DNA from: Anaerosoma tenue
GTDB lineage: Bacteria > Actinomycetota > Coriobacteriia > Anaerosomatales > Anaerosomataceae
Direction of reading: 5' to 3'
NCBI RefSeq assembly: GCF_023161965.1
Contig: NZ_JALNTY010000004.1
Span: 117,987-181,986, forward strand
Length of the DNA: 64,000 nucleotides
The notes beneath the pieces are model-generated. The model searched no databases. It was given only the letters and a program-made list of their open reading frames with translations, and was not told the DNA's origin. Position numbers and translations under genes: made by a program. Below, piece by piece: positions 47,638-64,000 of this stretch. Within the stretch, counting starts at the first letter, position 1; each line of letters begins with the position of its first letter.

Positions 47638-48609
47638 ATGTCCGATCCTCAACCACCGAAGCTGCTCGACATCATGGTGGAGGAGCTGCGGGCGCGTCAT
47701 TACAGCACGCGCACCGAGAAGGCCTACCTGCAGTGGGTCAGGCGCTTCATACGGTTCCACCGAATGCGGCATCCGGCAGAGATGGGCGCCGAGGAGGTCA
47801 ATGCGTTCGTCACGAGTCTTGCAGTCGATAGCGGCGTGAGCGCGTCGACGCAGACGCAGGCACTCTCGGCCGTGCTCTTCCTTTACAGATTTGTGCTGGG
47901 CATGGACGTCGGCGAACTCGAGGGGCTTGTCCGCGCGCGCAAGTCGACGCATCTGCCGGTGGTGCTGACCCGCGCCGAGATCCGGGCCGTCCTGGCCGAG
48001 CTCGAGGGCGAGTACTGGCTCATCTCGGCACTGCTCTACGGCACCGGCATGCGGCTGAGCGAGTGTCTTTCCCTGCGCGTGCAGGACATCGACTTCGGTG
48101 CGAACCAGATCGTGGTGCGCGACGGCAAGGGTGGCAAGGACCGCGTGACCATGCTGCCCGAGTCGCTGAAGGGCCCGCTCAAGGACCAACTCCGCCGTGC
48201 CGAGGTCGTGCACAAGCGGGATGTTGCCGACGGCTGGGGCAGGGTGGTGCTGCCCGAGGCGCTGGGGCGCAAGTATCCGAATGCCGCTGCGGAGTGGCGT
48301 TGGCAGTGGGTGTTTCCGCAACAGCGCCGGTGGACGAGCCGTGCGACGGGAGAGCAGGGCCGGCACCACATACACGAGACGCTCGTCCAGCGTGCGGTGC
48401 GTGAGGCGGTCCTGCGCTCCGGGGTCCAGAAGCATGTGACGTGTCACACCTTCCGGCATACGTTCGCGACGCAGCTGCTCGAGTCGGGCTACGACATCCG
48501 GACGATCCAGGAGTTGCTGGGACACAAGAGCGTGAACACGACCATGATCTACACACACGTGCTCAACAAGGGCGGGTTGGGCGTGCGGAGTCCGCTGGAT
48601 GGGATGTAA
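47638..48609 (+). CDS. intI: Integron integrase (IntI-type tyrosine recombinase)
   Basis: This 323-residue recombinase has an N-terminal SAM-like core-binding domain ([21 protein letters not shown]) and a catalytic domain with Arg139 (GTGMRLSE), His270 and Arg273 (CHTFRHTFA), His296 (LGHKSV) and nucleophile Tyr305 (MIYTHV). The insert at about 205-245 ([20 protein letters not shown] and after) is the extra domain found only in integron integrases and needed for attC hairpin recognition. GGGAG precedes ATG 47638. No LexA-type box is seen in the 120-bp upstream gap. Unlike class 1 integrons, intI reads toward the array. Confidence 0.96.
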
Positions 48610-48659
48610 GGCCGGTCCGGTGAGTGCCGGATTATCGAGACTGCATATCCTGGGCTGGA

Positions 48660-48748
48660 GATGCGACGTGAGAGGAATTGCGCTGTCTACACGGAACTCC
48701 ATAACCTAGAATCAAAGTGAATTTGAGTCTGTCGAATCATTGTTAGAC
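48660..48748 (+). other. attI recombination site (inferred)
   Basis: GTTAGAC at 48742-48748 fits the core GTTRRRY, and it is the exact complement of the R'' box (GTCTAAC) of the first attC, so the crossover is between 48742 and 48743. The left limit is arbitrary. TTGCGC (48678) with TAACCT (48702) is a weak candidate for a cassette promoter. Unlike attC, the site has no matching inverted arms. Confidence 0.7.
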
Positions 48749-48771
48749 CTACGTCCGATGGGGGCGACGAA

Positions 48772-49401
48772 TTGGATCGCGAGGAGCCACAGAGGGTGAT
48801 CCAATCCGCCTCACGCGAGGTCACTCCCGCTTTCACCCTTCACCAGATGAGCTACTCTGCCCTACTTCACGCCAAGTCGGGCGGACGCGGCCACTATCTC
48901 GACACGGTCACGGCGATGTTGCTCTGCCCCTTGACGGTAGAAGCGGTGCTCAACCATGTTGGCGCGTATCTCTTCCTGGAGAAGTCCTACGAGCCAGAGG
49001 TCTGGGCCGCCGTAGAGTGGCTGCGTCCGGAGAAGAAGCTTGATGCCATCGCTGAACGTTCACGCTTGGCGATTGACAAGGGTGTAGCACCCTTTCAGGA
49101 CTTCAAGGCCATGTTCGGCTTCAGGAGGCAGCTCGCGCACGGTAGGTCAGTATCGCTTTCAACAACTGAGATCCCCGCGCACGCCGTTGATGACGAGGGG
49201 TACCTGCTTGAGATGCGCGTTCCCGGCCTGCTTGCAGAGTGGGAGAGCCTGGTCGACATCAAGACCGCTGAACGATGGCGGGCGTCAGTCCGGGGCATCT
49301 CGGACGAGCTGTCGAGCGCTGCGGGTTGTATTGACCCTACGGTCGTTGGGAATGGCGTCACGTACTTGGGCGGCTTGGCTGCAGCATCGGACGAGGTCTA
49401 A
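48772..49401 (+). CDS. C1: hypothetical protein, possibly HEPN-like
   Basis: This is a 209-residue soluble protein from TTG 48772, with GGGGG upstream, ending inside the attC R'' box. No family is firmly recognised. FGFRRQLAHGRS contains R-x4-H, as in HEPN-type ribonucleases, within a predicted helical context after a long helix (DAIAERSRLAIDKGVAPFQD). HEPN proteins are common in defence and toxin systems. The similarity is limited to this motif, so it stays a hypothesis. It is the cassette next to attI and so likely the last inserted. Confidence 0.7.
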   Translation: MDREEPQRVIQSASREVTPAFTLHQMSYSALLHAKSGGRGHYLDTVTAMLLCPLTVEAVLNHVGAYLFLEKSYEPEVWAAVEWLRPEKKLDAIAERSRLAIDKGVAPFQDFKAMFGFRRQLAHGRSVSLSTTEIPAHAVDDEGYLLEMRVPGLLAEWESLVDIKTAERWRASVRGISDELSSAAGCIDPTVVGNGVTYLGGLAAASDEV

Positions 49402-49495
49402 CCCGCGCATCCACACCGACAGCGCGCCCCTTACGATAGACTCGGGATTGTGGCGCTCGCAGGCGCGCTGCGGGTGATGCGCAAGAACGTTAGGC
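49396..49495 (+). repeat. attC1
   Basis: 100 bp, R'' GTCTAAC and R' GTTAGGC, inner arms GCGCATC and GATGCGC. R'' pairs with the start of C1 at attI. Confidence 0.88.
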
Positions 49496-49515
49496 ATAGC
49501 AGAGGGGGGATTGCC

Positions 49516-49800
49516 GTGAGGCGAATTGCGATTGCTGGTGGCATCAGTGGGGTGCTCGTTCTGGCTTCGATTCTCCTGATGAGTGCTGTCGACACCGGGC
49601 TGTCGCGACTGTTCGCGTTCATCTTCCTACAGTTTCCCGCGATGCTGATCGGTTACGTGACCGGCGGGGAGGCAGGCACCTACGCGCTGGCCATCGTGGC
49701 CTGGGTTCTCTGGAGCGTCATCATGTACGCGGCTTTGTGGTTTGCCGGTACGTTCGTCGGTGGCCTGAGGGCTGCTGATCGACCGGCGAGGCATGCCTAA
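49516..49800 (+). CDS. C2: small membrane protein
   Basis: 94 residues from GTG 49516, with GAGGGGGG upstream. Three hydrophobic segments (IAIAGGISGVLVLASILLM, LFAFIFLQFPAMLIGYV, ALAIVAWVLWSVIMYAALWF) and a short basic tail are visible. No family is recognised. The stop codon is the TAA inside the attC R'' box, a common arrangement in cassettes. Confidence 0.75.
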   Translation: MRRIAIAGGISGVLVLASILLMSAVDTGLSRLFAFIFLQFPAMLIGYVTGGEAGTYALAIVAWVLWSVIMYAALWFAGTFVGGLRAADRPARHA

Positions 49801-49881
49801 CCCGCGCTTCCAGCCGACGGCGCAACCGCTAAGCTACGAAGGGAGGCGCTCGGCCGCGGCTGAAGCGCAAGAACGTTAGGC
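49795..49881 (+). repeat. attC2
   Basis: 87 bp, R'' GCCTAAC and R' GTTAGGC, arms GCGCTTCCAGC and GCTGAAGCGC. R'' is the complement of the C2 start. Confidence 0.9.
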
Positions 49882-49901
49882 ACAGCACCAGGAGGTCGCT
49901 A

Positions 49902-50255
49902 TTGGACGTGATCATCTCGTCGGAGGTTCTTTGGATTGCTCCTGCGGCGGCCGTTGTTGCGGTAGCTATTTGGGCGCTGGTTTGCTGGCGTCGCCCCGAT
50001 CCTCCAATTGGTCGACAGCTGGTCGGCACGCTACTGCTGCTGCTGGCAATCGGGCTGTTGGTGTTTGTGGTCCGCGACGCCGTTCTCACTGCAATGAGTT
50101 TCGGGTCGGACGCTCGGTTCGATGCTATGGGGCTCGCGTTCACCCTTATCGACAACTCTCTCGGACCGCTGGTGCTAGCCGCGATCACCCTAGTGCTCTC
50201 GGGGGTTGTGCTTGGCCGTCCTCGCCGTAGGGAGTCGGTGGGGGAGCGTGCCTAA
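49902..50255 (+). CDS. C3: small membrane protein
   Basis: 117 residues from TTG 49902, seven bases after AGGAGG. Three hydrophobic helices (VLWIAPAAAVVAVAIWALV, LVGTLLLLLAIGLLVFVV, LGPLVLAAITLVLSGVVLG) and an Arg-rich tail are visible. No family is recognised. It stops inside R''. Confidence 0.75.
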   Translation: MDVIISSEVLWIAPAAAVVAVAIWALVCWRRPDPPIGRQLVGTLLLLLAIGLLVFVVRDAVLTAMSFGSDARFDAMGLAFTLIDNSLGPLVLAAITLVLSGVVLGRPRRRESVGERA

Positions 50256-50337
50256 CAAGCGCTTCCAGCTGACGCGCCACGGTGTAGGCTACGAAGAGAG
50301 GGCTTCGGCGCGCAGCTGAAGCGCAAATGCGTTAGGC
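50250..50337 (+). repeat. attC3
   Basis: 88 bp, R'' GCCTAAC and R' GTTAGGC. Its arms and centre are nearly the same as attC4 and attC11. The L'' arm has two extra bases relative to L', as expected for the extrahelical bases. Confidence 0.92.
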
Positions 50338-50357
50338 AGGGCACTGGGGGGAGTCGC

Positions 50358-50579
50358 ATGGGTGTCTGGCATATCACCTCCGGATTCCTCTGTCTCGCCG
50401 TCGGGTTGGTCCTTCACCTGGCACAGAGGCCCCTGCGTGAGTGGTCTAGGCGTGTCTATCGCGGCATCACGCCGCTCTTCCCAAACTGGTCGATGCGAGT
50501 GCCGCCTGATGCTCTGCTGTTCTTCGCTGTGGGCATCGTCGTCATTCTGTGGGGAGTCGTGGAGCTGGCGGCTCCGTAG
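50358..50579 (+). CDS. C4: small membrane protein
   Basis: 73 residues from ATG 50358 after GGGGGGAG. Two helices (ITSGFLCLAVGLVLHLA and ALLFFAVGIVVILWGVVEL) flank a basic loop RPLREWSRRVYRG. No family is recognised. Confidence 0.72.
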   Translation: MGVWHITSGFLCLAVGLVLHLAQRPLREWSRRVYRGITPLFPNWSMRVPPDALLFFAVGIVVILWGVVELAAP

Positions 50580-50592
50580 GTCGCGGCGGCCT

Positions 50593-50680
50593 GCCTAACA
50601 AGCGCTTCCAGCTGACGCGCCACGGTGTAGGCTACGAAGAGAAGTCGTCGGCGCGCAGCTGAAGCGCAAACACGTTAGAT
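50593..50680 (+). repeat. attC4
   Basis: 88 bp, R'' GCCTAAC and R' GTTAGAT. It differs from attC3 in only a few central bases. Confidence 0.92.
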
Positions 50681-51030
50681 AGCCCTGACTCGCGAGCGGC
50701 ATCGAAGGACCTCGGTAGGGGCGGGCACCTGGGTCCGGTCGCATCGCTGGAAGTGCGGCGCCACCGTGCGGGCACCCCGTCGCTTATCACCGCAGCGCCT
50801 CCTCATCCGGGTGCACGCCTGCCCTCGGCGGTGATAAGTCCGTGGCTGGCCGCAGGCCAGGATGCGTGGCGTGAGCGCTCTTCGATCCCGGCAGCCTTCA
50901 TGATGTCCCCGGCCGGTGTCTGCCGGCTGGACCGGTCTTCCCGCGGCAATCTAACAAGCGCTTGCACCCGACGCGCAGAAGCGGTGCGCTAGACTGGATC
51001 CGCACGGCGCGCGGGTGAAGCGCAAATGCG
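50675..51030 (+). other. C5: cassette without a convincing gene, duplicated as C7
   Basis: 356 bp. The only frame of note (50753-50992, GTG, 79 codons) has no ribosome-binding site and runs far into attC. A perfect 11-bp inverted repeat (50783-50793 with 50828-50838, CTTATCACCGC) with a 34-base loop is present. C7 has the same length with 17 substitutions, no indels and both arms of this repeat unchanged, so an RNA or DNA-structure role is possible. Confidence 0.7.
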
Positions 51031-51036
51031 TTAGGC
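50949..51036 (+). repeat. attC5
   Basis: 88 bp, R'' ATCTAAC and R' GTTAGGC. R'' complements the unusual C5 start GTTAGAT. Nearly the same as attC7 and attC16. Confidence 0.92.
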
Positions 51037-51068
51037 CCAGCTTGTCGCTTCCTGTGTGGAGGTCTCCA

Positions 51069-51782: not shown

Positions 51783-51794
51783 TTCGCGGGGCGG

Positions 51795-51896
51795 GCCTAA
51801 CAAGCGCTTGCAGCAGAAAGCGCCGCCTGTCCGCGGTAGACTCGGGTGGCAAGGTCAAGGGGGCGGCGCTTCAGCTGATGCGCAAATGCGTTAGAT
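51795..51896 (+). repeat. attC6
   Basis: 102 bp, R'' GCCTAAC and R' GTTAGAT, longest of the array because of a larger central loop. Confidence 0.88.
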
Positions 51897-52246
51897 AGCC
51901 CTGAGTCGCGAGCGGCATCGAAGGACCTCGGTAGGGGCGGGCGCCCGGGTCCGGTCGCATCGCTGGAAGTGCGGCGTCACCGTGTGGGCACCCCGTCGCT
52001 TATCACCGCAGTGCCTCCTCATCCGGGTGCGTACCTGCCTTCGGCGGTGATAAGTCCGTGGCTGGTCGCAGGCCAGGATGCGTGGCGGGGGCGCTCCTCG
52101 ATCCCGGCAGCCTTCATGATGTCCCCGGCCGGTGTCTGCCGGCTGGACCGGTCTTCCCGTGGCAATCTAACAAGCGCTTGCACCCGACGCGCAGAAGCGG
52201 TGCGCTAGACTGGATCCGCACGGCGCGCGGGTGAAGCGCAAACACG
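51891..52246 (+). other. C7: second copy of cassette C5
   Basis: 356 bp, about 95 percent identical to C5 with no indels. The inverted repeat is at 51999-52009 and 52044-52054. In the corresponding 79-codon frame, changes are about equally silent and amino-acid-altering, giving no support for a selected protein. Confidence 0.7.
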
Positions 52247-52252
52247 TTAGCG
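52165..52252 (+). repeat. attC7
   Basis: 88 bp, R'' ATCTAAC and R' GTTAGCG. The R' departs from GTTRRRY at one base, and this base is matched in the R'' of the following cassette. Confidence 0.9.
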
Positions 52253-52635
52253 TGAGCTGCGCTTTCCTCCTCGGCGGTGACAAGGATTCAGGGGTGCGCC
52301 GGCTCCAAGCGCGCGCATCGCAAGTCATCACGGTGCACCTCGTCGGCCGCGACGCGTCCTCGCCCGCAGGGAGTGTGTGTTCTCTCGGCGGATTGCTTGA
52401 GCGCACGTCACCGCCGCGACTGACTCGCAAACCGCTCGCCCGGAGTCGTGGATGCGCGCCAGGGGCTCGTCGGGGCGGTCAGTGTGATCGCGAATCGCAC
52501 GCGGCAGCCGCTCTGCCGGCCTCTTTGCAGACAGTCATTGGGGAGGCGGACGCCACGCTAACAAGGGCATCCAGCTGACGGCCAGGAGCGCTAAGATGAA
52601 GAGAGGTGCATCGCCGCAGCTGATGCCCATTCACG
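52247..52635 (+). other. C8: cassette without a convincing gene, duplicated as C13
   Basis: 389 bp. Frames on both strands are present, but single-base insertions and deletions separate this copy from C13 at four places, and no frame is kept between them. No conserved ribosome-binding site is seen. The sequence is otherwise about 94 percent alike. It may be an RNA, or a decayed gene. Confidence 0.65.
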
Positions 52636-52641
52636 TTAGGT
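52556..52641 (+). repeat. attC8
   Basis: 86 bp, R'' CGCTAAC and R' GTTAGGT. R'' is the exact complement of the C8 start GTTAGCG. Confidence 0.9.
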
Positions 52642-52670
52642 GGGGACATGCGCAGAGCGTCGCGGCAAGG

Positions 52671-53222: not shown

Positions 53223-53229
53223 GGGTTGA

Positions 53230-53770: not shown

Positions 53771-53857
53771 ACCTAACAAGCGCATCGAGCAGAACGCCAG
53801 AAGGTAGAATCGGTCTGAAACCGCGTGGGCGTCTGCTCATGCGCAAACACGTTGGGC
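53771..53857 (+). repeat. attC9
   Basis: 87 bp, R'' ACCTAAC and R' GTTGGGC. R'' complements the C9 start. Confidence 0.9.
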
Positions 53858-53876: not shown

Positions 53877-54881
53877 CTAGACGGTCACGGCACCGGCCTC
53901 GACTTCCTCGCTGTCCTTGCTAGCCGTCATCGAATGCGTGCGCTGCCGTTCGTGCAGTTGGTCGTAGCGCCCGTACATGAACGGGCAGTGCTTGATGCAG
54001 AGCGTGCAGCCGTCCATCGTGCTGAACGGTACGGCGCACTTCTTGTGATCTATGAAGACCGGACCGCCTTCTGGTGCTTCGCGCGGCTCCAGGAAGATTG
54101 CGTTGGCAGGGCAGTGCTTCACGCACGAGTTGCACATGTCGCAGTAGTCTCTGACCCATGCGTGTGGGTTCTCCTCGGCGAAGGGCAAGTTCTCGATATC
54201 TGTGTAGACGGCTGCCAGTCTCACGCGGGGACCATACGTTTTGGTGATGAGCATCCCGTTCTTGCCCACCTCACCGAGCCCCGCATCGCGCGCCATCGGC
54301 ACGAAGCTGCCCTCGCTCCCCAGCGCCGGACCGGCATGGGCATTGAAGCCGCGCTCGCGAAGGAAGTCGGATATCTGATTGACCACGTAGCCGAGCTGGT
54401 AATAGGTGCGAAAGATTTCCATCAGGGTCGGGACACTCGGAGCCTGCTCGATCTTCTCGAGGTCCATCTCCATCGCAAAGACGATGGCGTTGGGGTACAG
54501 GATGCTCAGGTCCTTGAAGATGTAGTCAGGGTTCACGCGCGTGTAGCCGATCTCGGAAACCCCGAGTGAGCGGGCGTACGTCTCGAGGTCGGCCAGCGTC
54601 GTGGCATCGATTCGCGTGTTCCCGAGTCGCGGGTTCTCGCGGATGCTCGTGTTCGCCCTGCGCAACTCACGCATGTTCGCCGTCATCGACTGGCGGAGGC
54701 GCACCATCCTCTTGATACGTCCCCACAGGCTTCCGTAGTCGAAGATCAACAGCGGAACCAGCCGCGGATACCGCGCGTTCGGGCCGCTCGTCACCGGATG
54801 GTCGCCCTCGCGCAGGTAGTGGTCCTTGTCGAGGAACCACGGTGGGCGCCGGAACCTCTCGTGCAGCAAGATGCGCTTCAT
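53877..54881 (-). CDS. C10: 2[4Fe-4S] oxidoreductase, QueG / reductive-dehalogenase-like
   Basis: 334 residues from ATG 54879-54881, with AGGAGG upstream. The C-terminal third carries CDMCNSCVKHCP and CTLCIKHCP cluster motifs. The central part (ETYARSLGVSEIGYTRV, PMARDAGLGEVGKNGMLIT) matches the corrinoid-binding fold shared by epoxyqueuosine reductase and reductive dehalogenases. There is no Tat signal, so it is cytoplasmic. It overlaps no other gene and is read with the downstream-encoded TetR as one minus-strand operon. Substrate unknown. Confidence 0.82.
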   Translation of the reverse strand: MKRILLHERFRRPPWFLDKDHYLREGDHPVTSGPNARYPRLVPLLIFDYGSLWGRIKRMVRLRQSMTANMRELRRANTSIRENPRLGNTRIDATTLADLETYARSLGVSEIGYTRVNPDYIFKDLSILYPNAIVFAMEMDLEKIEQAPSVPTLMEIFRTYYQLGYVVNQISDFLRERGFNAHAGPALGSEGSFVPMARDAGLGEVGKNGMLITKTYGPRVRLAAVYTDIENLPFAEENPHAWVRDYCDMCNSCVKHCPANAIFLEPREAPEGGPVFIDHKKCAVPFSTMDGCTLCIKHCPFMYGRYDQLHERQRTHSMTASKDSEEVEAGAVTV

Positions 54882-54891
54882 AGTCGGCCTC

Positions 54892-55467
54892 CTAGCTCGT
54901 GGGACTCCAGCGGGCGAGAAGCGCGTCCACATGGTCAGGGATGTACTCGCGCGACACGACGCGGCCCACGATGAAGCGTTCGTGGAAGAATGGGCCTGCT
55001 ATCAATGACAGTGCGGTCTCCATGGGGACGTCTATCTCGAGTCCCCCCTCGGTCGCGCCTCGTTCGAGCAGCGCTTCGATCTCATCCCTGGCGTGCACCA
55101 GGACGCTGTCCAGGAATGAGCGCACCTCCGGCTCCCACTCGGCGCGTGCGATGAGCGAGGACATCGCGAAGGCGACCGGTGATTCGAGGCGGTCGCACAG
55201 GGTTTCGAGAATGTATACAAGGCCATCACGGACTGAGAGACTCTCCGGCGCCCCGATGGACAGCGATAGCGCTTCGAGCGCTCCGAGCATGAGACTCTGG
55301 CGATCCGGCCAGTGCCTGTAGACTGTGGCGCGTCCAATGCCAGCCTTCTCGGCAACTCGCTGATGAGTGACCGCCTCGGGGCCGTCCTCGCGCAGCAACT
55401 CTAGGGCGGCCGCGGTGACAACCTCCCGCGTACGCTCTATCCGTGGGTCTATAGTCGTTCCGTCCAC
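54892..55467 (-). CDS. C10: TetR-family repressor
   Basis: 191 residues from GTG 55465-55467 (GGAG five bases upstream). An earlier in-frame ATG would put the coding region across the operator repeats and is not used. The DNA-binding domain reads RTREVVTAAALELLREDG, THQRVAEKAGIGRATVYRHWPDR. It precedes the Fe-S gene by 10 bp on the same strand, so it likely represses the whole operon. Confidence 0.9.
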   Translation of the reverse strand: MDGTTIDPRIERTREVVTAAALELLREDGPEAVTHQRVAEKAGIGRATVYRHWPDRQSLMLGALEALSLSIGAPESLSVRDGLVYILETLCDRLESPVAFAMSSLIARAEWEPEVRSFLDSVLVHARDEIEALLERGATEGGLEIDVPMETALSLIAGPFFHERFIVGRVVSREYIPDHVDALLARWSPTS

Positions 55468-55498
55468 TGCAACTCCGATCTCAGCAACCTGCAACACT

Positions 55499-55537
55499 AT
55501 GATACATACTGTATCGATACGATACAAGGCGTATCAT
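55499..55537. promoter_or_regulatory. GATAC/GTATC operator cluster in C10
   Basis: ATGATAC and GTATCAT border a 39-bp segment with five GATAC or GTATC half-sites, including the perfect 10-bp palindrome GTATCGATAC (55511-55520). It lies just upstream of the TetR start, where its operator and promoter should be. Confidence 0.7.
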
Positions 55538-55552: not shown

Positions 55553-55639
55553 GCCCAACAAGCGCATCAAGCTGACGCGCACGAGGTTGTCGTATCCTGA
55601 AGGCGCATGGCGCGCAGCTTATGCGCAAAGACGTTAGGT
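55553..55639 (+). repeat. attC10
   Basis: 87 bp, R'' GCCCAAC and R' GTTAGGT. R'' complements the unusual C10 start GTTGGGC. Confidence 0.9.
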
Positions 55640-55659: not shown

Positions 55660-56133
55660 GTGTCGAATCCTGACCTGAAGGCGCTCAAGATTGCGCGCAT
55701 CATCTCCGGTTGGCTTGCCCTGGTCGTGCTGCTTCTTCTCTGGAGCTCCTGGATGATCACCGGCGGCAACATCCCGATTGCGTCGCAGGACCGCGCATTC
55801 GTCGCGATTCTCATGGGGATGGCAGTCCCGGGCTTCGTGATCGGCCTGATGCCAAGGGTGGCACTCCGGCTCTGGCCCATCGCGCAGGGTCAGCCGCCCA
55901 CCGTGCTGTACGCGGTTAGCTCGGTGCTTTCCGCTCTCATCATTCAGTTGCTGCCGTTGATGGGCGTCGTCGCCAGCGTAACGGCAGAGAGCATGCTTCC
56001 ATTCGCCGGAGCGTTCGTCGTATGGGCACTTGCCGCAGTCTGGGTGTGGCCCAAACGCAGCCGGCTCGAGATCTGGATGTCGCGACAGTCCTCGGAGTCC
56101 TCGGCGCAGCACCTAACAAGCGCTTCCAGCTGA
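55660..56133 (+). CDS. C11: membrane protein
   Basis: 157 residues from GTG 55660 after GAGGGGG. Four hydrophobic segments (ISGWLALVVLLLLWSSW, FVAILMGMAVPGFVIGLM, VLYAVSSVLSALIIQLLPL, LPFAGAFVVWALAAVWVW) are visible. No family is recognised. The last residues are encoded within attC11. Confidence 0.75.
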   Translation: MSNPDLKALKIARIISGWLALVVLLLLWSSWMITGGNIPIASQDRAFVAILMGMAVPGFVIGLMPRVALRLWPIAQGQPPTVLYAVSSVLSALIIQLLPLMGVVASVTAESMLPFAGAFVVWALAAVWVWPKRSRLEIWMSRQSSESSAQHLTSASS

Positions 56134-56198
56134 CGCGCCACGGTGTAGGCTACGAAGAGAGGGCTTCGGCGCGCAGCTGAAGCGCCAAGACGTTAGGT
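56111..56198 (+). repeat. attC11
   Basis: 88 bp, R'' ACCTAAC and R' GTTAGGT, inner part the same as attC3. Confidence 0.92.
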
Positions 56199-56493: not shown

Positions 56494-56580
56494 ACCTAAC
56501 CAGCGCATCCAGCAGGCGCGGCAAGCGATAGACTGAACGGCAGGGAATGGGCGCGCTGCTGATGCGCTCATACGTTAGCG
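56494..56580 (+). repeat. attC12
   Basis: 87 bp, R'' ACCTAAC and R' GTTAGCG, the latter belonging to C13. Confidence 0.9.
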
Positions 56581-56963
56581 TGAGCTGCGCTTTCCTCTTC
56601 GGTTGTGACAAGGATTCAAGGTGCGCCGGCTCTAGGCGCGCGCATCGCAAGTCATCACGGTGCACCTCGTCGGCCGCGACGCGTCATCGCCCGCAGGGAG
56701 TGTCTGTTCTCTCGGCAGATCGCTTGAGCGCACGTCACCGCCGCGACTGACTCGCAAACCGCTCGCCCCGGAGTCACGGATGCGCGCCAGGGCTCGTCGG
56801 GGCGGTCAGTGTGATCGCGAATCGCACGCGGCAGCCGCTCTGCCGGCCTTTTTGCAGACAGTCACTGGGGAGGCGGACGCCACGCTAACAAGGGCATCCA
56901 GCTGACGGCCAGGAGCGCTAAGATGATAGGAGGTGCATCGGCCGCAGCTGATGCCCAAAGACG
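56575..56963 (+). other. C13: second copy of cassette C8
   Basis: 389 bp, about 94 percent like C8 with two one-base deletions and two one-base insertions that cancel in length. The boundaries and attC are also shared. No frame survives in both copies. Confidence 0.65.
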
Positions 56964-56969
56964 TTAGAT
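56883..56969 (+). repeat. attC13
   Basis: 87 bp, R'' CGCTAAC and R' GTTAGAT, near-identical to attC8. Confidence 0.9.
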
Positions 56970-56982: not shown

Positions 56983-57609
56983 ATGCGGGCGTACAAGCAC
57001 ATCGGGGTGATTGAGAACAACCGCCGGCTCGACTTCCTTTCGCGATACCGGAACGACGTCGTCGAGTACTTCAATCACTGCACGTCCGGGTATCTCGGTA
57101 CGTCATGGACTGAGGACGACACCGCGCGGGAAGTTCGTCGTCGGATCAACCTCGAGACTGACGAGGCCTACGACGTCATCCATGCTGCCGGCATATCCAC
57201 GACGATGACGTACACTCCGCCTCCGATGATCGGTGGATACATCCAGAACGTCGAACTGGTCCACAACATCTTCAACTTCGCCCACTTCGATCTCTCGCCG
57301 CAGGCCCTCATCGACATGGCTGAGCGAGCTGTGGGCGTCTACCAGCGCAATCACGGGGCCGCGGTGATTCGTACGCTCAACCCCTTCTTCTACATCGGGC
57401 TCGCTTTGGATGCGATCGCCCGATCTCCCTTCCTGCTCGCAACCCGCCTGGGATTGCCGGGTGGGCGGCTTGAGAGTTCCGTGCTGGGAGTCGTTGTACG
57501 TCTCGTCGTCTACCTCGCAGGAGCGATAGCCTCGGCATTGGCCATCCTCGGTTTCCTTGGCTACCTGGACGAGGCTCGGGCCGCAGTATCACGCTGGCTC
57601 GGCATCTAA
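56983..57609 (+). CDS. C14: hypothetical protein with C-terminal membrane helices
   Basis: 208 residues from ATG 56983 after GAGGTG. A soluble N-terminal part (FLSRYRNDVVEYFNHCTSGY, EAYDVIHAAGISTTMTYTPP) is followed by hydrophobic helices near 135-150 and 165-200 (VVRLVVYLAGAIASALAILG). No family is recognised. It stops in R''. Confidence 0.75.
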   Translation: MRAYKHIGVIENNRRLDFLSRYRNDVVEYFNHCTSGYLGTSWTEDDTAREVRRRINLETDEAYDVIHAAGISTTMTYTPPPMIGGYIQNVELVHNIFNFAHFDLSPQALIDMAERAVGVYQRNHGAAVIRTLNPFFYIGLALDAIARSPFLLATRLGLPGGRLESSVLGVVVRLVVYLAGAIASALAILGFLGYLDEARAAVSRWLGI

Positions 57610-57689
57610 CCAGCGCATCCAGCCGGCGGCGCAAGGTAGTCTTGTGAAGTGAGGCGCACGGCCGCGGCTGATGCGCAAATGCGTTATGC
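57604..57689 (+). repeat. attC14
   Basis: 86 bp, R'' ATCTAAC and R' GTTATGC, the least canonical core in the array. Confidence 0.85.
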
Positions 57690-57960
57690 CTGACGGACAG
57701 CAGCACTACGGGTTGTGACCGATCGCAGGTCGGTCGAACGGAAGTGTTCTGCTCCGATCCCCGCGCCAGGTGCCCGCGCTTCACGGTCTCGGGGGCAGCA
57801 GCCGGGTCAGCCGGTCGGCGGCTACGACGCGCCTCCGCGCATCTCCGCCGCGAAGACAGGTTCGAGTCATCGCTTCCGCGGCATAACAAGCGCATCCAGC
57901 CGGCGGCGTGAGGTAATCTTGTGAAGTGAGGCGCACGGCCGCGGCTGATGCGCAAATGCG
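57684..57960 (+). other. C15: short cassette without a convincing gene
   Basis: 277 bp including attC15. A 69-codon GTG frame (57715-57924) ends in attC and has no clear ribosome-binding site. The translation is rich in Arg/Pro/Ser with no hydrophobic or domain pattern, as expected by chance in GC-rich DNA. Confidence 0.6.
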
Positions 57961-57966
57961 TTAGGT
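57881..57966 (+). repeat. attC15
   Basis: 86 bp, R'' GCATAAC and R' GTTAGGT. R'' exactly complements the odd C15 start GTTATGC. The body is almost the same as attC14. Confidence 0.9.
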
Positions 57967-58026: not shown

Positions 58027-58515
58027 CTAGTAACCGACTGCCTGTACGCCGTACTCCGCCTCAGCCTGGGTGAATCCCTCGAAGATCAGCTGATCGATCA
58101 GTCCCTGGCGTGAGAAGGACGACATGTCCAGGTAGTCCTGCGCTTTCTGTGCCGCCTGCGCATCCCAGTCAGGGGCGATGTGGTCCACAGCGAATGTCGC
58201 GTCCTCGGTACTGAAGCCTTCGAACACCAGCTGGTCTATGAGCCCTTGGCGCGAGAATGATGCGAAGTCGAGGTAGTCCTCGCCCTTGCCGATCGCCTGC
58301 TGCTGACCCATCGTAAGCTCCGGTTCTGCGGGCTCCTCGACGACAGGCTCGGACTCCGTAGGCTGCTCGACGGCCTTTGATTCTGCGGGCTCCTCGACAG
58401 TCTCACTCGCTGGAGCGGCGCTCTCTGATTCGTTCGATGAAGTCGCCACCTCACCACAGGCCACTAACAGCATCAGCATCGCGATCGCTGACAGGATTAT
58501 CAGCGCCTTCTTCAT
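58027..58515 (-). CDS. C16: Ltp-like surface lipoprotein
   Basis: 162 residues from ATG 58513-58515 after GGGGGG. The lipoprotein signal ends MLLVACGE (Cys20). A Glu/Pro/Ser-rich spacer follows, then two repeats of about 45 residues: YLDFASFSRQGLIDQLVFEG and YLDMSSFSRQGLIDQLIFEG, each ending with a phrase like F(S/T)xxxAxxxV. These match the paired helix-turn-helix repeats of Ltp-type host-surface lipoproteins. A phage TP-J34 member blocks DNA injection of other phages. It reads against the array and must have its own promoter. Confidence 0.82.
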   Translation of the reverse strand: MKKALIILSAIAMLMLLVACGEVATSSNESESAAPASETVEEPAESKAVEQPTESEPVVEEPAEPELTMGQQQAIGKGEDYLDFASFSRQGLIDQLVFEGFSTEDATFAVDHIAPDWDAQAAQKAQDYLDMSSFSRQGLIDQLIFEGFTQAEAEYGVQAVGY

Positions 58516-58596: not shown

Positions 58597-58684
58597 ACCT
58601 AACCAGCGCTTCCACCCGACGCGCAGAAGCGGTGCGCTAGACTGAATCCGTACGGCGCGCGGGTGAAGCGCAAATGCGTTAGGT
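58597..58684 (+). repeat. attC16
   Basis: 88 bp, R'' ACCTAAC and R' GTTAGGT, inner part like attC5 and attC7. Confidence 0.92.
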
Positions 58685-58708: not shown

Positions 58709-58924
58709 GTGGAATCACGCAGGAGGCCCATGTTCCTCGTCGCGGCAGTCGTCTGTTTCGGGATTGCCGTTCTCGCGCTCACCGGGGTGATACTTGCAGG
58801 CGATGTAGTGGGCCGCATCATCTTCGGTGCGGTGTGGATCGCTGTTGGGATTGTCTGGCTCGGCTCCTATTTCGGTGCGTTCTTCGGTCACCGAGGACCT
58901 CGGGGAAGCGGCGGCACGACCTAA
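58709..58924 (+). CDS. C17: small membrane protein
   Basis: 71 residues from GTG 58709, eight bases after AAGGGGGG. An earlier GTG at 58700 overlaps that site. Two helices (MFLVAAVVCFGIAVLALTGVI and IIFGAVWIAVGIVWLGSYF) are visible. The stop is inside R''. Confidence 0.72.
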   Translation: MESRRRPMFLVAAVVCFGIAVLALTGVILAGDVVGRIIFGAVWIAVGIVWLGSYFGAFFGHRGPRGSGGTT

Positions 58925-59006
58925 CCAGCGGATGGAGCAGACTCACGCCATGCCGCGGCTATGATGGCAAGGGAGCGGTTCGCAGCTCATCCGCTCCACG
59001 TTAGGT
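58919..59006 (+). repeat. attC17
   Basis: 88 bp, R'' ACCTAAC and R' GTTAGGT, inner arms GCGGATGGAGC and GCTCATCCGC. Confidence 0.9.
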
Positions 59007-59027
59007 GGGCAGTGGCTGGAGGCTTGT

Positions 59028-59324: not shown

Positions 59325-59342
59325 AGTCTTGTCACCGGAGCC

Positions 59343-59435
59343 GCCTAACCAGCGCATCAACCTGGCGCGCACAGGCGCGCCGGCGCTTCGCGCGGTAAGC
59401 TGGTGGCGCGCAGGTTATGCGCAAACACGTTGGGC
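59343..59435 (+). repeat. attC18
   Basis: 93 bp, R'' GCCTAAC and R' GTTGGGC. R'' differs in one base from the complement of the C18 start, one of only two such exceptions. Confidence 0.88.
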
Positions 59436-59467
59436 GCAACACACGATCTCGGGGAGGGGGGATCCTG

Positions 59468-60448
59468 GTGTTCCATCGGCGTGTCCTAGCCGTCGCTGTC
59501 TTGTTGGTCCTGTTCTGTGCGGCGTACGCACAGGCTTCCGACGGCTGTAGGACCCAGCCCTTCGATGACACGTCGCGCGTCGATGAGTATGCGGCCGACG
59601 AGAGCCTGCCGTTCCGGTTCCCCATGGACGAACTCTTCGCGGAGTCAAGCGAGTACCAGGCGCGCTTCCGCGAGTGGGCCGGTCCCACCGATGATCTGAA
59701 GTATCACGCTGCAGAAGACTACCACCAGCCAGCAGGCACTCCCGTGTACGCGAGCGCGGACGGCAAGGTGAGTTTCTCGGGCAGAATGGGTGGATACGGG
59801 TGGCTGATCATCGTCGACCACCCGCAGTTCGACCTCTACTCACTCTACGGGCACTTGAGCCCTAGCCGGTGGCGGATTGACGCTGGGACCGAGGTCGAGA
59901 AGGGTGAGCTGCTCGCCTACTTGGGCGACGAGGACGAGAATGGCGGGAGCACCGACTCCCCACTCGTGACACACCTCCACTTCGGAATGCGTGTCGGTCA
60001 ACGCGGCGACTACCCGGGCAAAGGCGAGTGGCGTTGGATGGCTGGCTGGATCAAGCCGTGTCCCACCGACTTGGGATGGCTGCGCCCCTCCGAGGTGATC
60101 AACGCCCAAGGTGCGCCGGTCGGTGGGTTTCCCACGCCGCACGGCGGCTTCTGGGAGGTCTGGCGAGCCGAGATCGTGCTACTCAGCATCTACGTGGTCT
60201 CAGGATGCATGTGGCTGTTCTTCGGCACAAGACAACGCAAGCGGATCATGCTCGTGCTCGGGGGCCTCATGCTGATCGTTGTGGGATCGTTCTTCCACAT
60301 CCGAGGGATGAAGGCCGGCGCGGGGCTCCTCTTGTTCGCGCTTGCATACGCCACGATCGTGGGGGTGTGGTTCGCTCGACAGCGCGGGAGTGGCGAACAG
60401 GTCCGGGGAGGGGCGAGTGGCTTCGACTCAAGTGGGAGTCAGCCCTGA
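59468..60448 (+). CDS. C19: exported M23-type peptidase with membrane tail
   Basis: 326 residues from GTG 59468 after GGGGAGGGGGG. A signal peptide (residues 1-23) is followed by an M23/LytM domain with the zinc motifs HAAEDYH and HLHFG and the lysostaphin-like phrase GTPVYASADGKV. Three C-terminal transmembrane helices follow (about 225-305). It probably cuts peptidoglycan peptides while anchored in the membrane. The tail makes it unlike most M23 enzymes. Confidence 0.85.
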   Translation: MFHRRVLAVAVLLVLFCAAYAQASDGCRTQPFDDTSRVDEYAADESLPFRFPMDELFAESSEYQARFREWAGPTDDLKYHAAEDYHQPAGTPVYASADGKVSFSGRMGGYGWLIIVDHPQFDLYSLYGHLSPSRWRIDAGTEVEKGELLAYLGDEDENGGSTDSPLVTHLHFGMRVGQRGDYPGKGEWRWMAGWIKPCPTDLGWLRPSEVINAQGAPVGGFPTPHGGFWEVWRAEIVLLSIYVVSGCMWLFFGTRQRKRIMLVLGGLMLIVVGSFFHIRGMKAGAGLLLFALAYATIVGVWFARQRGSGEQVRGGASGFDSSGSQP

Positions 60449-60457
60449 GAAGCGTGC

Positions 60458-60554
60458 GCCCAACCAGCGGATCGAGCAGACACGGGCGCTCGGGAGCTAG
60501 AATCGAGTGAAGGCGGGAGCTGGCGCCCGGCAGCTCATCCGCTCGACGTTAGGG
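60458..60554 (+). repeat. attC19
   Basis: 97 bp, R'' GCCCAAC and R' GTTAGGG. R'' complements the C19 start GTTGGGC. Confidence 0.88.
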
Positions 60555-60580
60555 CGACGCGCAGAGGGAGGGGAGCGGGA

Positions 60581-61255: not shown

Positions 61256-61268
61256 GAGGACTTGGACA

Positions 61269-61922
61269 ATGGGTAGATCGATTCGGCCGATTCTCGCAGT
61301 TCTCTGCGGTGTGGCAATAGTGGTGCTATTCGTGACTGCCTGCTCCGTGGAGGTTCTCGCTCCCGCTACAGATGAGGGCGAGTTCATCAACCCCGGGGCA
61401 GCGCTCGCGCCTACTGCAAACGAGGACTGGTACGAACTGATTGCACGCGAGGAAGAATACGGTATCTCGTTCCAGCGGATGCTCGAAGAGGTGCCTTACG
61501 CGGTCTTGCTGCGCGGAGACAGCTCATCTGTCCTGAGCCCGAACTGGGTGACGGTCGTTGATCAGACCCTCTCCGACGGGACAATCGTCACGGGCTACAC
61601 GCTGCGGTACGGCGACCGTATTGCCCTCTTTGTTACACCAACTGACCGCAAGATGGACGCCAACACTGAAGCGAAGGACCGGGAGATCACCCCAGACGTT
61701 ACGGGTGAGCGTCATCCATGGAACGTCGTATCCATCCGCGGGGTTGAGGGAGTTGCACGCTCGGCTACTACTCAGAAGTGGCAGTCTGGCGACATGATGG
61801 CTGTACCCTCAGTTGTTGAATGGCAGGTTGTGTGTGAGGGCCCCGCGCCGTTCATTCGGTATGCTCTTGTTGGCGATATCCCTATCGACGATCTGATCAT
61901 CATTGCAGATAGCTTGAGGTAG
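61269..61922 (+). CDS. C20: lipoprotein of unknown function
   Basis: 217 residues from ATG 61269. The signal peptide ends in LFVTAC (lipobox). The mature protein is acidic with a mixed alpha/beta look, and no family is recognised. It is the second gene of a two-gene cassette, and both products are exported, so they may work together at the surface. Confidence 0.75.
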   Translation: MGRSIRPILAVLCGVAIVVLFVTACSVEVLAPATDEGEFINPGAALAPTANEDWYELIAREEEYGISFQRMLEEVPYAVLLRGDSSSVLSPNWVTVVDQTLSDGTIVTGYTLRYGDRIALFVTPTDRKMDANTEAKDREITPDVTGERHPWNVVSIRGVEGVARSATTQKWQSGDMMAVPSVVEWQVVCEGPAPFIRYALVGDIPIDDLIIIADSLR

Positions 61923-61944
61923 GGTATTGAGAATCCGTTGTGCG

Positions 61945-62031
61945 CCCTAACCAGTGCTTCCAGCTGACGCGCCGAAGGTTATGGTGTGAAGCGAAGTCTT
62001 CGGCGCGCGGCTGAAGCACCCGACGTTAGAC
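61945..62031 (+). repeat. attC20
   Basis: 87 bp, R'' CCCTAAC and R' GTTAGAC. R'' complements the C20 start GTTAGGG. Confidence 0.9.
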
Positions 62032-62110
62032 GCAATCTGGATTCCCCCGATGTCATCGCGCGCGGGTACAATCGCGATATACGGGTCTTCGGTTCACTGA
62101 GGTGATCAAC

Positions 62111-62332
62111 ATGACGGTCGAAGAGATCATGCGAGAGGCACTGACACTCGATGTCGAAACGCGGGCCTCGATTGCTCATGAGTTGCTCTCCAGCCTCGAG
62201 TCACTCTCCGATGCTGAGGTCGAGCGTCTCTGGGTGGCTGAAGCCAAGCGCCGCAGCGCTGATGTCAAAGCCGGACGGGCGCAGACTCTCTCGGCGCATG
62301 AGTCACTGGCCCGCGCCCGCGCCAATCGGTAA
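62111..62332 (+). CDS. C21: addiction-module antitoxin
   Basis: 73 residues from ATG 62111. EEIMREALTLDVETRASIAHEL and SDAEVERLWVAEAKRR match the short putative addiction-module component family found before RelE/ParE toxins. It neutralises the toxin encoded five bases downstream. Confidence 0.88.
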   Translation: MTVEEIMREALTLDVETRASIAHELLSSLESLSDAEVERLWVAEAKRRSADVKAGRAQTLSAHESLARARANR

Positions 62333-62337
62333 CCACC

Positions 62338-62634
62338 GTGATCCTCGACATCCACGAGGACGCTGACCGCGAACTCAACGACGCAGCGAACTACTACGAC
62401 TCGGAGAGCCCCGGACTCGGCACGCTGTTCCTCGACCAAGTTGACGACGGGTATCAGCGCATCCTCGAGAATCCGCATGCCGCAGCAGAGGTCGACTCTG
62501 ACATCAGAAGGCTCGTCCTTGCGAAGTTTCCCTTCAATCTGATCTACGAGATTGATGGCGACGTCATCCTGATTCTTGCCGTTGCGCACCAGAGGCGTAG
62601 GCCCCACTACTGGCGCGAACGCCGGGTGGGATGA
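62338..62634 (+). CDS. C21: RelE/ParE-family toxin
   Basis: 98 residues from GTG 62338. The fold pattern is seen in HEDADRELNDAANYYDSESP, the central FPFNLIYEIDGDVILILAV and the end AHQRRRPHYWRER. These are either mRNA interferases or gyrase poisons. The ending HxRRxPxYWxxR is typical of ParE-like members. Confidence 0.88.
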   Translation: MILDIHEDADRELNDAANYYDSESPGLGTLFLDQVDDGYQRILENPHAAAEVDSDIRRLVLAKFPFNLIYEIDGDVILILAVAHQRRRPHYWRERRVG

Positions 62635-62722
62635 ATCTAACAAGCGCTTCCAGCAGGCGCGATAGGCCGCTCGGCTACACTGTGAGCCACAGGCGCGCGG
62701 GTGAAGCGCAAATGCGTTAGAC
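62635..62722 (+). repeat. attC21
   Basis: 88 bp, R'' ATCTAAC and R' GTTAGAC. The outermost base of R'' does not match the C21 start, the second exception. Confidence 0.88.
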
Positions 62723-62740
62723 CCAACCATTGCAGGCGGT

Positions 62741-62768
62741 TTGGATTCCGTTAAGAATACGGTAAACT
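62741..62768 (+). promoter_or_regulatory. Possible promoter of the C22 toxin-antitoxin pair
   Basis: TTGGAT, a 16-bp spacer and TAAACT. The spacer and next 20 bases carry repeated CCGTTA / TACGG pieces that could be the antitoxin's operator. Confidence 0.5.
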
Positions 62769-62801
62769 GTACGGAGTAACGTATCTTATCGGAGGTGTCC
62801 C

Positions 62802-63083
62802 ATGGCTCAACTCCGCCCATCCACTGATGTTCGCCCTGTCACTGAGTTCCGCGCGAACACATCGGCCGTCCTCGACCAGGTCCACGCGACCAAGCGTCCG
62901 GTCATCCTGACGCAACACGGCCGCAGCGCAGCTGTGCTCATGGACGTCGAGGTGTACGAGGGGCTGCTCGACGAGGTCGCACTCCTACGGGCTGTTCGCT
63001 CCGGGGAGCAGGAGATGCTGCAGGGTGACTTTGTGCCGCATAACGACGTTGAGGCGCGCGTGCGCGAGAGATTCGCCAAGTGA
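62802..63083 (+). CDS. C22: Phd/YefM-family antitoxin
   Basis: 93 residues from ATG 62802 after GGAGGTG. DVRPVTEFRANTSAVLDQV and RPVILTQHGRSAAVLMDVEVYEGL are the DNA-binding core of this family. It both represses its operon and blocks the toxin, whose gene overlaps by four bases. Confidence 0.93.
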   Translation: MAQLRPSTDVRPVTEFRANTSAVLDQVHATKRPVILTQHGRSAAVLMDVEVYEGLLDEVALLRAVRSGEQEMLQGDFVPHNDVEARVRERFAK

Positions 63084-63376
63084 GGATCGTCTGGACACGG
63101 CAGGCGCAGGTGATGCTCGACGAGGCCGTCGACTACATCGCCGCAGAGCGACCGGCAGCTGCGCTCCGTTGGCTCGATGAGACGATGGAGCGAGTACGGT
63201 CTCTTGAGCGCTTCCCCGATCTCGGACGCATCGTTCCTGAACTGCAGCGGCCTGAGATCCGCGAGGTCCTTGTCGGCCCGTATCGCGTGCCGTATCACCG
63301 GGACGAGCAGCAGGTCACGATTCTGGCCGTGCTCCATGATCGGCGCCTGTTCGAGCTTGGTGGCACCGATGAGTAG
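63080..63376 (+). CDS. C22: RelE/ParE-family toxin
   Basis: 98 residues from GTG 63080. TRQAQVMLDEAVDYIAAERP, LERFPDLGRIVPEL and LVGPYRVPYHRDEQQVTILAVLHDRR are standard. It is paired with the preceding antitoxin by a GTGA overlap. Confidence 0.93.
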   Translation: MRIVWTRQAQVMLDEAVDYIAAERPAAALRWLDETMERVRSLERFPDLGRIVPELQRPEIREVLVGPYRVPYHRDEQQVTILAVLHDRRLFELGGTDE

Positions 63377-63381
63377 GGTGG

Positions 63382-63468
63382 GTCTAACAAGTGCTTCCAG
63401 CCGACTCACACACGCGCTAGGCTGGGCTGGAGCCGCTCGTTCGCAGCTGAAGCGCCAAGACGTTAGGC
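63382..63468 (+). repeat. attC22
   Basis: 87 bp, R'' GTCTAAC and R' GTTAGGC. R'' complements the C22 start. Confidence 0.9.
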
Positions 63469-63483
63469 GGATAGGAGTGGAGG

Positions 63484-64000
63484 ATGGGGGATTCCTACAG
63501 GGTCGGCCCCGCGCTCCCCGAACACGCCTGCTCGCTTCCGCACATCGAGCGCGCGGCCGCGGATTTGTTCGGGGATGCTGTGCCGGCGGAGCTGCTCGAG
63601 AATGTCACGCCCGAGTCCGTCTTCCTCGCCGCCCAGCAGGACGGCACGCTTTGGGTGGCGCTCGGTCCGGATGATCGTCCGGTCGGCTTCATTCGCGTGG
63701 TCGTGACAGGTCAACGAGTCCACCTCGCGGAGCTCGACGTGCTTCCGGCCCACGGGCGGCGCGGGATCGGCACAGCGCTCGTCCGGGCAGTGGGTGACTG
63801 GGCGCACTCGGAGCACTTCACGGAGATCACGCTCACCACCTATCGCGACCTGCCGTGGAACGCGCCGTTCTACGCCGGTCTGGGATTCGACGTCGTCCCA
63901 GAATCTGAATGGGATGCTGAGACGCGCCGGCGGTTCGAAGAAGAGGCGGGGCTGGAGTCGGAGCGAGCCAGACGTGTGGTCATGCGCAAACGGCTGGCTA
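63484..64000 (+). CDS. C23: GNAT-family N-acetyltransferase (cut by window end)
   Basis: 172 codons are visible from ATG 63484 (GGAGG upstream) with no stop before the edge. HLAELDVLPAHGRRGIGTAL is the acetyl-CoA-binding motif A, and LPWNAPFYAGLGFD is motif B. It transfers an acetyl group to an amine. The substrate is unknown. Such genes are frequent integron cargo, including antibiotic-modifying members, but nothing here points to a drug. Confidence 0.85.
   Translation, partial: MGDSYRVGPALPEHACSLPHIERAAADLFGDAVPAELLENVTPESVFLAAQQDGTLWVALGPDDRPVGFIRVVVTGQRVHLAELDVLPAHGRRGIGTALVRAVGDWAHSEHFTEITLTTYRDLPWNAPFYAGLGFDVVPESEWDAETRRRFEEEAGLESERARRVVMRKRLA

Follow-up and report, generated by a model that had tools for sequence, protein, structure and literature searches.

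A contig-truncated reverse integron of Anaerosoma tenue with a promoter-like hexamer in its attC loops and toxin-antitoxin genes at the platforms of its relatives

The last 16.4 kb (47638-64000, + strand) of a 64,000-nucleotide stretch of the Anaerosoma tenue genome (Actinomycetota; Coriobacteriia; Anaerosomatales), here called the window, carry an integron which consists of the integrase gene intI, the attachment site attI and 22 cassettes with their attC recombination sites. The integron, likely chromosomal, is truncated by the end of its contig; attI and at least 22 cassettes are located 3′ of intI, and a TANNNT hexamer in the attC loops likely drives the transcription of the respective next cassette. 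For the order as a whole, the evidence tips slightly towards attC doubling as cassette promoter, with joints transcribed regardless of their position, and towards a platform, i.e. intI with its attI, that is repeatedly guarded by toxin-antitoxin modules in the gap between the two. Both the lineage-enriched TANNNT in the attC loops and the toxin-antitoxin genes in the intI-attI gap seem to be new.

A promoter-like hexamer in the attC loops

The loops contain hexamers such as TAGACT, TAGGCT, TAGAAT and TAAGAT. On the cassette strand, TANNNT was present in all attC loops of the window (22/22; shuffle mean 3.1, maximum 8), and GNTANNNT was found in 18 of the 22 sites. Adding matches from 20 loci to the window gave 69 loops under 0.8 similarity; of these, 58 contained TANNNT (mean 9.3, maximum 17) and 20 the reverse motif (mean 12.9, maximum 21). 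For the lineage set, the reverse-strand matches of locus L130 and sites under 75 nt were dropped, leaving 120 of 129 sites and, under 0.75 similarity, 47 non-redundant loops. TANNNT occurred in 42 of these 47 loops (dinucleotide shuffles: mean 8.2, maximum 15) and GNTANNNT in 34 (mean 3.5, maximum 9). Among all 64 motifs of the form XYNNNZ, TANNNT stood out most with 42 loops vs a mean of 7.5, the runner-up being 9 above its mean.

TANNNT resembles an extended -10 promoter element, and promoter activity is predicted from this sequence likeness. The three middle bases vary freely, with 19 forms in the 47 loops, as is the case for -10 elements. Moreover, the base two positions before the T of TANNNT, which is the extended -10 place, is G in 81%, and when 30 of the 45 tRNA genes in the source genome were examined, 24 had the same form in their upstream region (mean 9.3, maximum 15). 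These observations, together with the strand bias of the motif (42/47 loops vs 14/47 for the reverse motif ANNNTA; mean 10.7, maximum 19), argue against an alternative in which the hexamer serves recombination or DNA structure, for example by its loop shape or as a protein site, and not transcription. Its location inside a recombination site and the lack of a conserved -35 are consistent with such a role, which is nevertheless judged unlikely, since the attC sites that the same model detects in other lineages show no enrichment.

This model (R1), a covariance model made from the attC sites of the window, favours attC of that kind in other genomes. Among held-out loops of at least 15 nt TANNNT was found in 20/26, a share that includes short, cut or weak rows and changes to 19/23 when these are excluded, with the same conclusions. 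The rows concerned across all loop counts were three Coriobacteriia sites with three others and two sites of the order with 21 others. In L043, L070 and L044, which belong to records titled Actinomycetota or Coriobacteriia, it was present in 11 of 13 loops of at least 15 nt, and in six further platforms of the order in 9/13, or 9/11 excluding the two weakest. In other phyla the motif was found in 9 of 27 loops of at least 15 nt (27 of 54 sites had such loops) vs a mean of 8.4, and a further 1/1 gives 10/28. In other classes of the phylum the count was 3 of 24 loops of at least 15 nt (24 of 45 sites; mean 1.3), and 4 of the 21 shorter loops have the motif.

The hexamer precedes the 3′ end of attC by 40-64 nt (median 52 nt), on its owner's side of the crossover, so that it stays with the owner cassette and would drive the downstream neighbour. 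In an excised circle, it would be located upstream of the gene of its own cassette and would drive this gene, while the promoter of the first cassette in the array would be supplied by attI. Here, TAGAAT at 48707-48712 (+), which has the TANNNT form and falls within the 75 nt leading up to the attI core, is the predicted -10 of the candidate cassette promoter Pc. The array would then be independent of a single Pc or of read-through from intI. In 15 of the 22 cassettes, a + strand open reading frame (ORF) with a Shine-Dalgarno-like sequence begins soon past the preceding att site, at a distance of 13-41 nt in 13 of those 15 and of 79 nt in two toxin-antitoxin cassettes. With 13-41 nt, a translation start is present and there is little room for another promoter.

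Several observations weigh against a promoter function. No conserved -35 was found upstream of the attC hexamer, and a -10 without one can be weak or silent. TANNNT is absent from 5/47 non-redundant and from 6/26 held-out loops, to which two held-out sites with shorter loops are to be added, and in the window the reverse motif is somewhat raised (9/22 loops; mean 4.3, maximum 9). Furthermore, the attC copies have common ancestry, and the counts are thus not fully independent. Within 75 nt ahead of the attI core, TANNNT is enriched to a modest degree (27/37 platforms; mean 18.4, maximum 27 in 300 shuffles). According to the available part of one publication, attC hairpins impede downstream transcription or translation (PMC8876359). 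Finally, several cassettes carry minus-strand genes, for which other promoters are needed.

Toxin-antitoxin genes between intI and attI

When 48 IntI loci of the order were inspected, attI could be located in 43, which are the platforms counted here. In 28 compact platforms attI is located 96-209 nt past the intI stop, and in 15/43 it is displaced from intI by 507-1647 nt. Toxin-antitoxin genes are present in the gap of 14 of the 15 displaced platforms; L158 has none. BrnT/BrnA were found in eight platforms (L127, L131, L135, L136, L144, L161, L162 with BrnA alone, and L211), YefM/YoeB in L128 and L157, and MazE/Doc in L138, L142 and L157. The gap of L129 contains minus-strand YefM/YoeB and a HigB/HigA-like pair, and that of L152 a minus-strand HigB/HigA-like pair, in both cases facing intI. 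The family names were assigned with Pfam for representatives; BrnA (just under the cut-off) and the HigB-like protein (no Pfam match) were named by partner and position.

The presence of different toxin-antitoxin families at one place suggests repeated entry of such genes into the intI-attI gap. In L157, two different pairs, YefM/YoeB and then MazE/Doc, are arranged in tandem ahead of attI. The gaps yielded no attC on the array strand, and in L129 an inverted attC (8042-8125) is located between intI and attI amid the minus-strand toxin-antitoxin genes. Past the attI of compact platforms, 1 of 18 examined (of 23; 202-15252 nt available) has one of the same representatives within 1.5 kb. Among 47 loci with at least 500 nt from records that are not Coriobacteriia-like, 3 have one of these representatives within 2 kb of intI, in one case after the first attC; the representatives derive from the gaps of the order, and other families would be missed in this comparison. 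Genes in the gap would be beyond the reach of cassette excision and would penalise the loss of the platform. It is from their location alone that a guarding role is proposed. The platform of the window is compact and has no toxin-antitoxin genes in its gap, its pairs being the cassettes C21 and C22.

The gaps also bear on the possibility that read-through from the intI promoter accounts for the expression of the cassettes. The shared direction of intI and array, the lack of any terminator-like site detected in the intI-attI interval of the window and the short distance to attI in the 28 compact platforms would allow for this. On the other hand, the spacing amounts to 0.5-1.65 kb in 15/43 platforms, with toxin-antitoxin genes in 14 of them and genes that face intI in L129 and L152, and read-through leaves the lineage-specific TANNNT of attC unexplained. 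The -10-like elements in attC and attI and the opposing gap genes of L129 and L152 make read-through unlikely as the only source. It is possible from intI, is not needed for cassette expression, and as an account of this expression it appears rather doubtful next to the attC-borne element.

By eye, a minus-strand ORF in the gap of L152 resembles an HNH endonuclease. Downstream of intI in L159 no attI core was found, and the first ORF there resembles an antitoxin by eye, so that this locus may represent another displaced attI.

Integrase and attI

The window contains features that characterize an integron: an IntI tyrosine recombinase, an attI adjoining intI with a GTTRRRY crossover, attC sites with a conserved fold, and cassettes whose boundary fingerprint identifies them as separate mobile units. 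Since intI is directed at attI and has the same direction as the cassettes, the integron is of the reverse (Treponema) type, and the 22 cassettes up to the contig end, the alike attC sites and the occurrence of IntI across the lineage are those of a sedentary one. In the preliminary description of this DNA, a sedentary integron of reversed layout, with the array 3′ of intI in the same direction, had already been proposed, which agrees with the covariance model, the cassette boundaries and the attI core.

intI (47638-48609, +) encodes an integron integrase of 323 aa (TIGR02249, PF00589, PF13495). Against the NCBIfam model TIGR02249 (integron integrase) IntI reaches 474.8 bits at a cut-off of 265, and its scores with the XerC and XerD models are far under the cut-offs of those models. 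Residues 15-321 align with IntI4 of V. cholerae (2a3v; 285.7 bits, E 4e-84), and the alignment runs through a 35-residue stretch, the presumed integron-specific insert, in line with the insert claimed earlier. In a tree made by a quick method, in which many forks are open, the window IntI grouped with three Actinomycetota IntI (support 98) within a large group whose labelled layouts are all of the reverse kind, and two classical-layout loci fell into one six-row group (support 93), nested in a group of 13 that also contains reverse-layout loci. A phage or Xer origin of IntI, which had been named as a point to be checked, was ruled out by the TIGR02249, XerC and XerD scores and by the placement among Actinomycetota and Coriobacteriia IntI in the tree. 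The search for LexA boxes upstream of intI covered two motifs, of which GAACN4GTTC was found in 0 of 42 regions of more than 150 nt and CTGN10CAG in 0 among the 43 regions listed.

The attI site of the window is composed of a left arm, TTATCGAGACTGCA (48632-48645, +), which is related to TTACACAGACTGCA of the sister platforms, and a core, GAGTCTGTCGAATCATTGTTAGAC (48725-48748, +), with a position weight matrix score of 31.9 (next best 6.5; the window core is among the 20 in the matrix). In the relatives, the conserved site downstream of intI correspondingly consists of the left arm TTACACAGACTGCA and a core resembling CAGACTGTAGAATCATTGTTAGRY. The crossover is located 3′ of intI between G and TTAGAC at 48742/48743, a position that is fixed by the match of the left boundary of cassette 1 to its own attC R″ (4/4 bases). 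There, IntI would cut between G and TT and insert folded single-stranded attC, and newly captured cassettes would enter adjoining intI.

With the matrix from 20 cores of IntI loci of the order and a score threshold of 13, the attI core was detected in 36 of the 42 loci, and with L137, where it was placed by eye (score 5.8, one extra core base), the number rises to 37/42. The core was unlocated in L154, L156, L032, L160 and L159 owing to a truncated IntI, an early end or no site. It was present in 6/6 further loci of the order outside the matrix set, and in other classes of the phylum in 2 of 14 loci (L195, L196), the remainder scoring under 11.

attC sites

A pattern search revealed 22 attC candidates in the window. 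Their fold, a structure of 23 pairs that was written by hand from the alignment of the 22 sites, is paired to 92.0%, and 12 of the 23 pairs are altered on both sides among the sites. The covariation score was 0.279 with a shuffle mean of 0.097, and 0/500 shuffles were as high; the sites are related. Model R1 recovered exactly these 22 sites with 46.7-91.7 bits, all on the + strand and all 3′ of intI, in agreement with the number and the placement claimed beforehand. Up to E = 1, the other R1 matches in the 64 kb were two weak reverse-strand echoes of attC only. A home-made generic attC finder proved stricter than the covariance model, with 19/22 sites for the window and 3 on the reverse strand, and none of the counts is based on it.

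All on the + strand, the sites begin with attC1 at 49397-49495 (53.8 bits with R1; loop GATAGACT, TACGAT too), attC2 at 49796-49881 (81.8 bits; GCTAAGCT), attC3 at 50251-50337 (87.7 bits; TGTAGGCT), attC4 at 50594-50680 (85.4 bits; TGTAGGCT), attC5 at 50950-51036 (89.0 bits; GCTAGACT), attC6 at 51796-51896 (57.7 bits; GGTAGACT), attC7 at 52166-52252 (86.5 bits; GCTAGACT) and attC8 at 52557-52641 (76.2 bits; GCTAAGAT). They continue with attC9 at 53772-53857 (76.4 bits; GGTAGAAT), attC10 at 55554-55639 (82.3 bits; CGTATCCT), attC11 at 56112-56198 (86.7 bits; TGTAGGCT), attC12 at 56495-56580 (71.7 bits; GATAGACT), attC13 at 56884-56969 (85.5 bits; GCTAAGAT), attC14 at 57605-57689 (77.7 bits; GGTAGTCT), attC15 at 57882-57966 (79.9 bits; GGTAATCT) and attC16 at 58598-58684 (91.7 bits; GCTAGACT). 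The last sites are attC17 at 58920-59006 (62.5 bits; GCTATGAT), attC18 at 59344-59435 (71.1 bits; GGTAAGCT), attC19 at 60459-60554 (46.7 bits; GCTAGAAT), attC20 at 61946-62031 (74.7 bits; GTTATGGT), attC21 at 62636-62722 (71.0 bits; GCTACACT) and attC22 at 63383-63468 (71.1 bits; GCTAGGCT).

Cassette boundaries and gene content

In integrons, the left boundary of a cassette travels with the cassette and is expected to be complementary to R″ of its own attC and not to the adjoining R′. In the 22 cassettes, 86 of 88 variable bases of the left boundaries are complementary to R″ of the own attC, 57/88 fit the adjoining R′ of the neighbour's attC, and in 10,000 permutations of the boundaries 57.8 bases fitted on average and 72 at most. 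The match of 86/88 indicates that the cassettes moved as separate units.

Cassette C1 (48749-49396, +) contains an ORF at 48772-49401 for which no family was found. A TetR-family regulator (PF00440) is encoded on the minus strand in C9 (52671-53291). C10 (1.7 kb) carries, both on the minus strand, an Fe-S protein with a reductive-dehalogenase-like C-terminus (53877-54932; under the model cut-off) and a TetR regulator (54892-55527). In C16, a minus-strand lipoprotein with two Ltp domains (58027-58515; PF07553, E 3e-31) was found; its ORF is listed from 58821, and the likelier start is the ATG at 58515 ahead of a lipoprotein-type signal. The Ltp family is familiar from phage-exclusion lipoproteins. 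When ten proteins of the array were submitted to PADLOC for the detection of defence genes, 0/10 matched at E 0.01. C19 encodes an M23 peptidase domain protein (59468-60448, +; PF01551), the ORF of which is listed from 59417 within attC18, and the GTG at 59468 after a Shine-Dalgarno-like sequence is proposed as its start. The toxin-antitoxin pairs, both on the + strand, consist of an Unstab_antitox antitoxin (62102-62332; PF09720) and a ParE-type protein (62338-62634; PF05016) in C21, and of a Phd-type antitoxin (62802-63083; TIGR01552) and a ParE-type toxin (63080-63376; PF05016) in C22. Additionally, two near-identical cassette pairs are present, 50656-50955 vs 51872-52171 (94%) and 52293-52613 vs 56620-56940 (96-97%); three of these four duplicated cassettes (C5, C7, C13) revealed no + strand ORF that begins close to the site behind a Shine-Dalgarno-like sequence.

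Extent of the array in the genome

The source assembly comprises 6 contigs with 2.1 Mb in total. The contig of the window, C4, has 181986 bases and terminates at window base 64000 within the array, which is therefore truncated; the stretch past attC22 (63469-64000, +) is the beginning of either another cassette or the flank, interrupted by the contig end. The integron is likely chromosomal, the replicon being not closed. Genome-wide, the covariance model identified 28 solid attC sites (150 of 3191 first-look candidates scored), namely 22 in the window, 4 on contig C3 and 2 on C1. The 4 sites on C3 (357935-360011, L125) are on the minus strand, and the last one ends 3 bases from the end of C3 (360014 bases). 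They are probably the distal part of the window array, with the array of C4 running on into C3. This join is unproved: in a comparison of the C3 end with regions of five relatives, a single cassette ORF (both its strands) was matched, in L133, where an ORF of the array is 79% identical to it across 153 residues.

The origin of array or layout as an artefact of assembly or binning is most improbable. The assembly is in 6 contigs, a small-subunit rRNA match was absent from it in the genome search, the contig terminates within the array, and arrays are repetitive. In contrast, the boundary fingerprint of 86/88 extends along the entire array, the same layout is found in many other assemblies, among them a relative from the same family (G005, locus L134) with a single contig of 1838614 bases (1.84 Mb), and IntI is positioned in the tree with other Actinomycetota and Coriobacteriia IntI.

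The two attC sites on C1 (941018-943502, L126) form a small integrase-less cluster distant from intI. Upstream of the integron, at 45897-46025, two 58-nt direct repeats are located, which are 97% alike and spaced by 71 nt.

Distribution of the reverse layout

IntI proteins above the cut-off of TIGR02249 were found in 40 of 61 related genomes, the source genome included. Sampling of 296 genomes from the class yielded 46 with such a protein, and all 47 matching genomes belong to the order of the window. Among 396 sampled genomes of the phylum 16 had such a protein, 13 of them outside the class. Throughout the order, the attC matches are located 3′ of intI and on the intI strand, except for weak reverse-strand echoes and the one inverted site in L129, so that the array comparison in sister genomes that had been recommended found the same layout across the order. 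In other classes of the phylum, reverse layout was observed in seven loci (L195, L196, L199, L201, L204, L207, L208) and classical layout in two loci of one genome (L200, L205). Most of the attC sites located in IntI-bearing genomes of the phylum outside the class are shorter-looped.

Also inspected were 80 loci of named genomes with the IntI nearest to that of the window; part of these genomes are identical with the relatives described above. At E ≤ 0.01, attC was found 3′ of intI on its strand in 39 loci, which include Chlorobi, Deltaproteobacteria, Neomarinimicrobiota, Cyanobacteria and a Spirochaete, and in classical layout in 1 (L114, Contendobacter). No attC match at that level was obtained in 40/80 loci, often since the contig stops just past intI. 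At E ≤ 0.1 the numbers were 40 reverse and 2 classical, L111 and L090 being added, and L053 had a partial match 5′ of intI. The reverse layout was described for Treponema and a few others in the parts of the publications available (PMC3607928, PMC6557892), and the earlier statement that it is reported for a few lineages such as Treponema alone is too narrow, as many phyla have it.

Comparison with known integrons and significance

The comparisons with published systems are based on the available parts of the cited descriptions. In Treponema denticola and its kin, as in the window, intI is transcribed towards attI in the direction of the cassettes, and a GTTRRRY box of attI is found between intI and the first attC (PMC3607928). 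Unlike these reverse integrons, that of the window belongs to another phylum, in which the layout is order-wide, and the lineage has both an attC-borne -10-like element and, in a third of the sister platforms, gap toxin-antitoxin genes, neither of which appears in that description. With Vibrio superintegrons the window shares a long array in which most cassettes are unknown, attC sites that resemble one another, and toxin-antitoxin cassettes (PMC11551772, PMC8876359), whereas their intI reads in the opposite way and Pc starts upstream of attI (PMC3948777). Toxin-antitoxin cassettes are scattered along the array of Vibrio superintegrons; in the sister platforms such genes are also found in the intI-attI gap. 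The descriptions of Vibrio superintegrons that were consulted mention no -10 common to their attC sites.

In Vibrio sp. DAT722, one promoter likewise spans the junction at an attC, which contributes the -35 (PMC2945992). Its -10 belongs to one cassette and is missing from the other cassettes of that array, in contrast to the lineage of the window, where nearly every attC has a -10-like element but a conserved -35 is lacking. Promoters inside arrays are described elsewhere too, including oral Treponema, and relieve the dependence on Pc (PMC11014356, PMC6557892). Those array promoters are special cassettes, whereas in the lineage of the window the element is located within the recombination site of each cassette.

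In the literature on integrons of Coriobacteriia and Actinomycetota, on attC promoters and on toxin-antitoxin genes with attI, neither feature is reported at title level, in a search that left subscription papers and preprints mostly uncovered. The protein database already contains entries named 'integron integrase [Coriobacteriia bacterium]', and a review of 2021 counts the phylum among integron carriers (PMC8618304). The available part of the IntegronFinder 2.0 publication reports no complete integron in Actinobacteria (PMC9024848).

The order-wide integrons are thus placed in a phylum in which that RefSeq survey had found no complete one. It is an open question how large integrons achieve the expression of cassettes distant from Pc, and an attC-borne -10-like element would offer a direct answer for one lineage. 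The attC sites of this lineage would moreover represent a natural set of promoter sequences that are also constrained to fold as recombination sites, and the recurrent toxin-antitoxin genes between intI and attI bear on the persistence of integron platforms.

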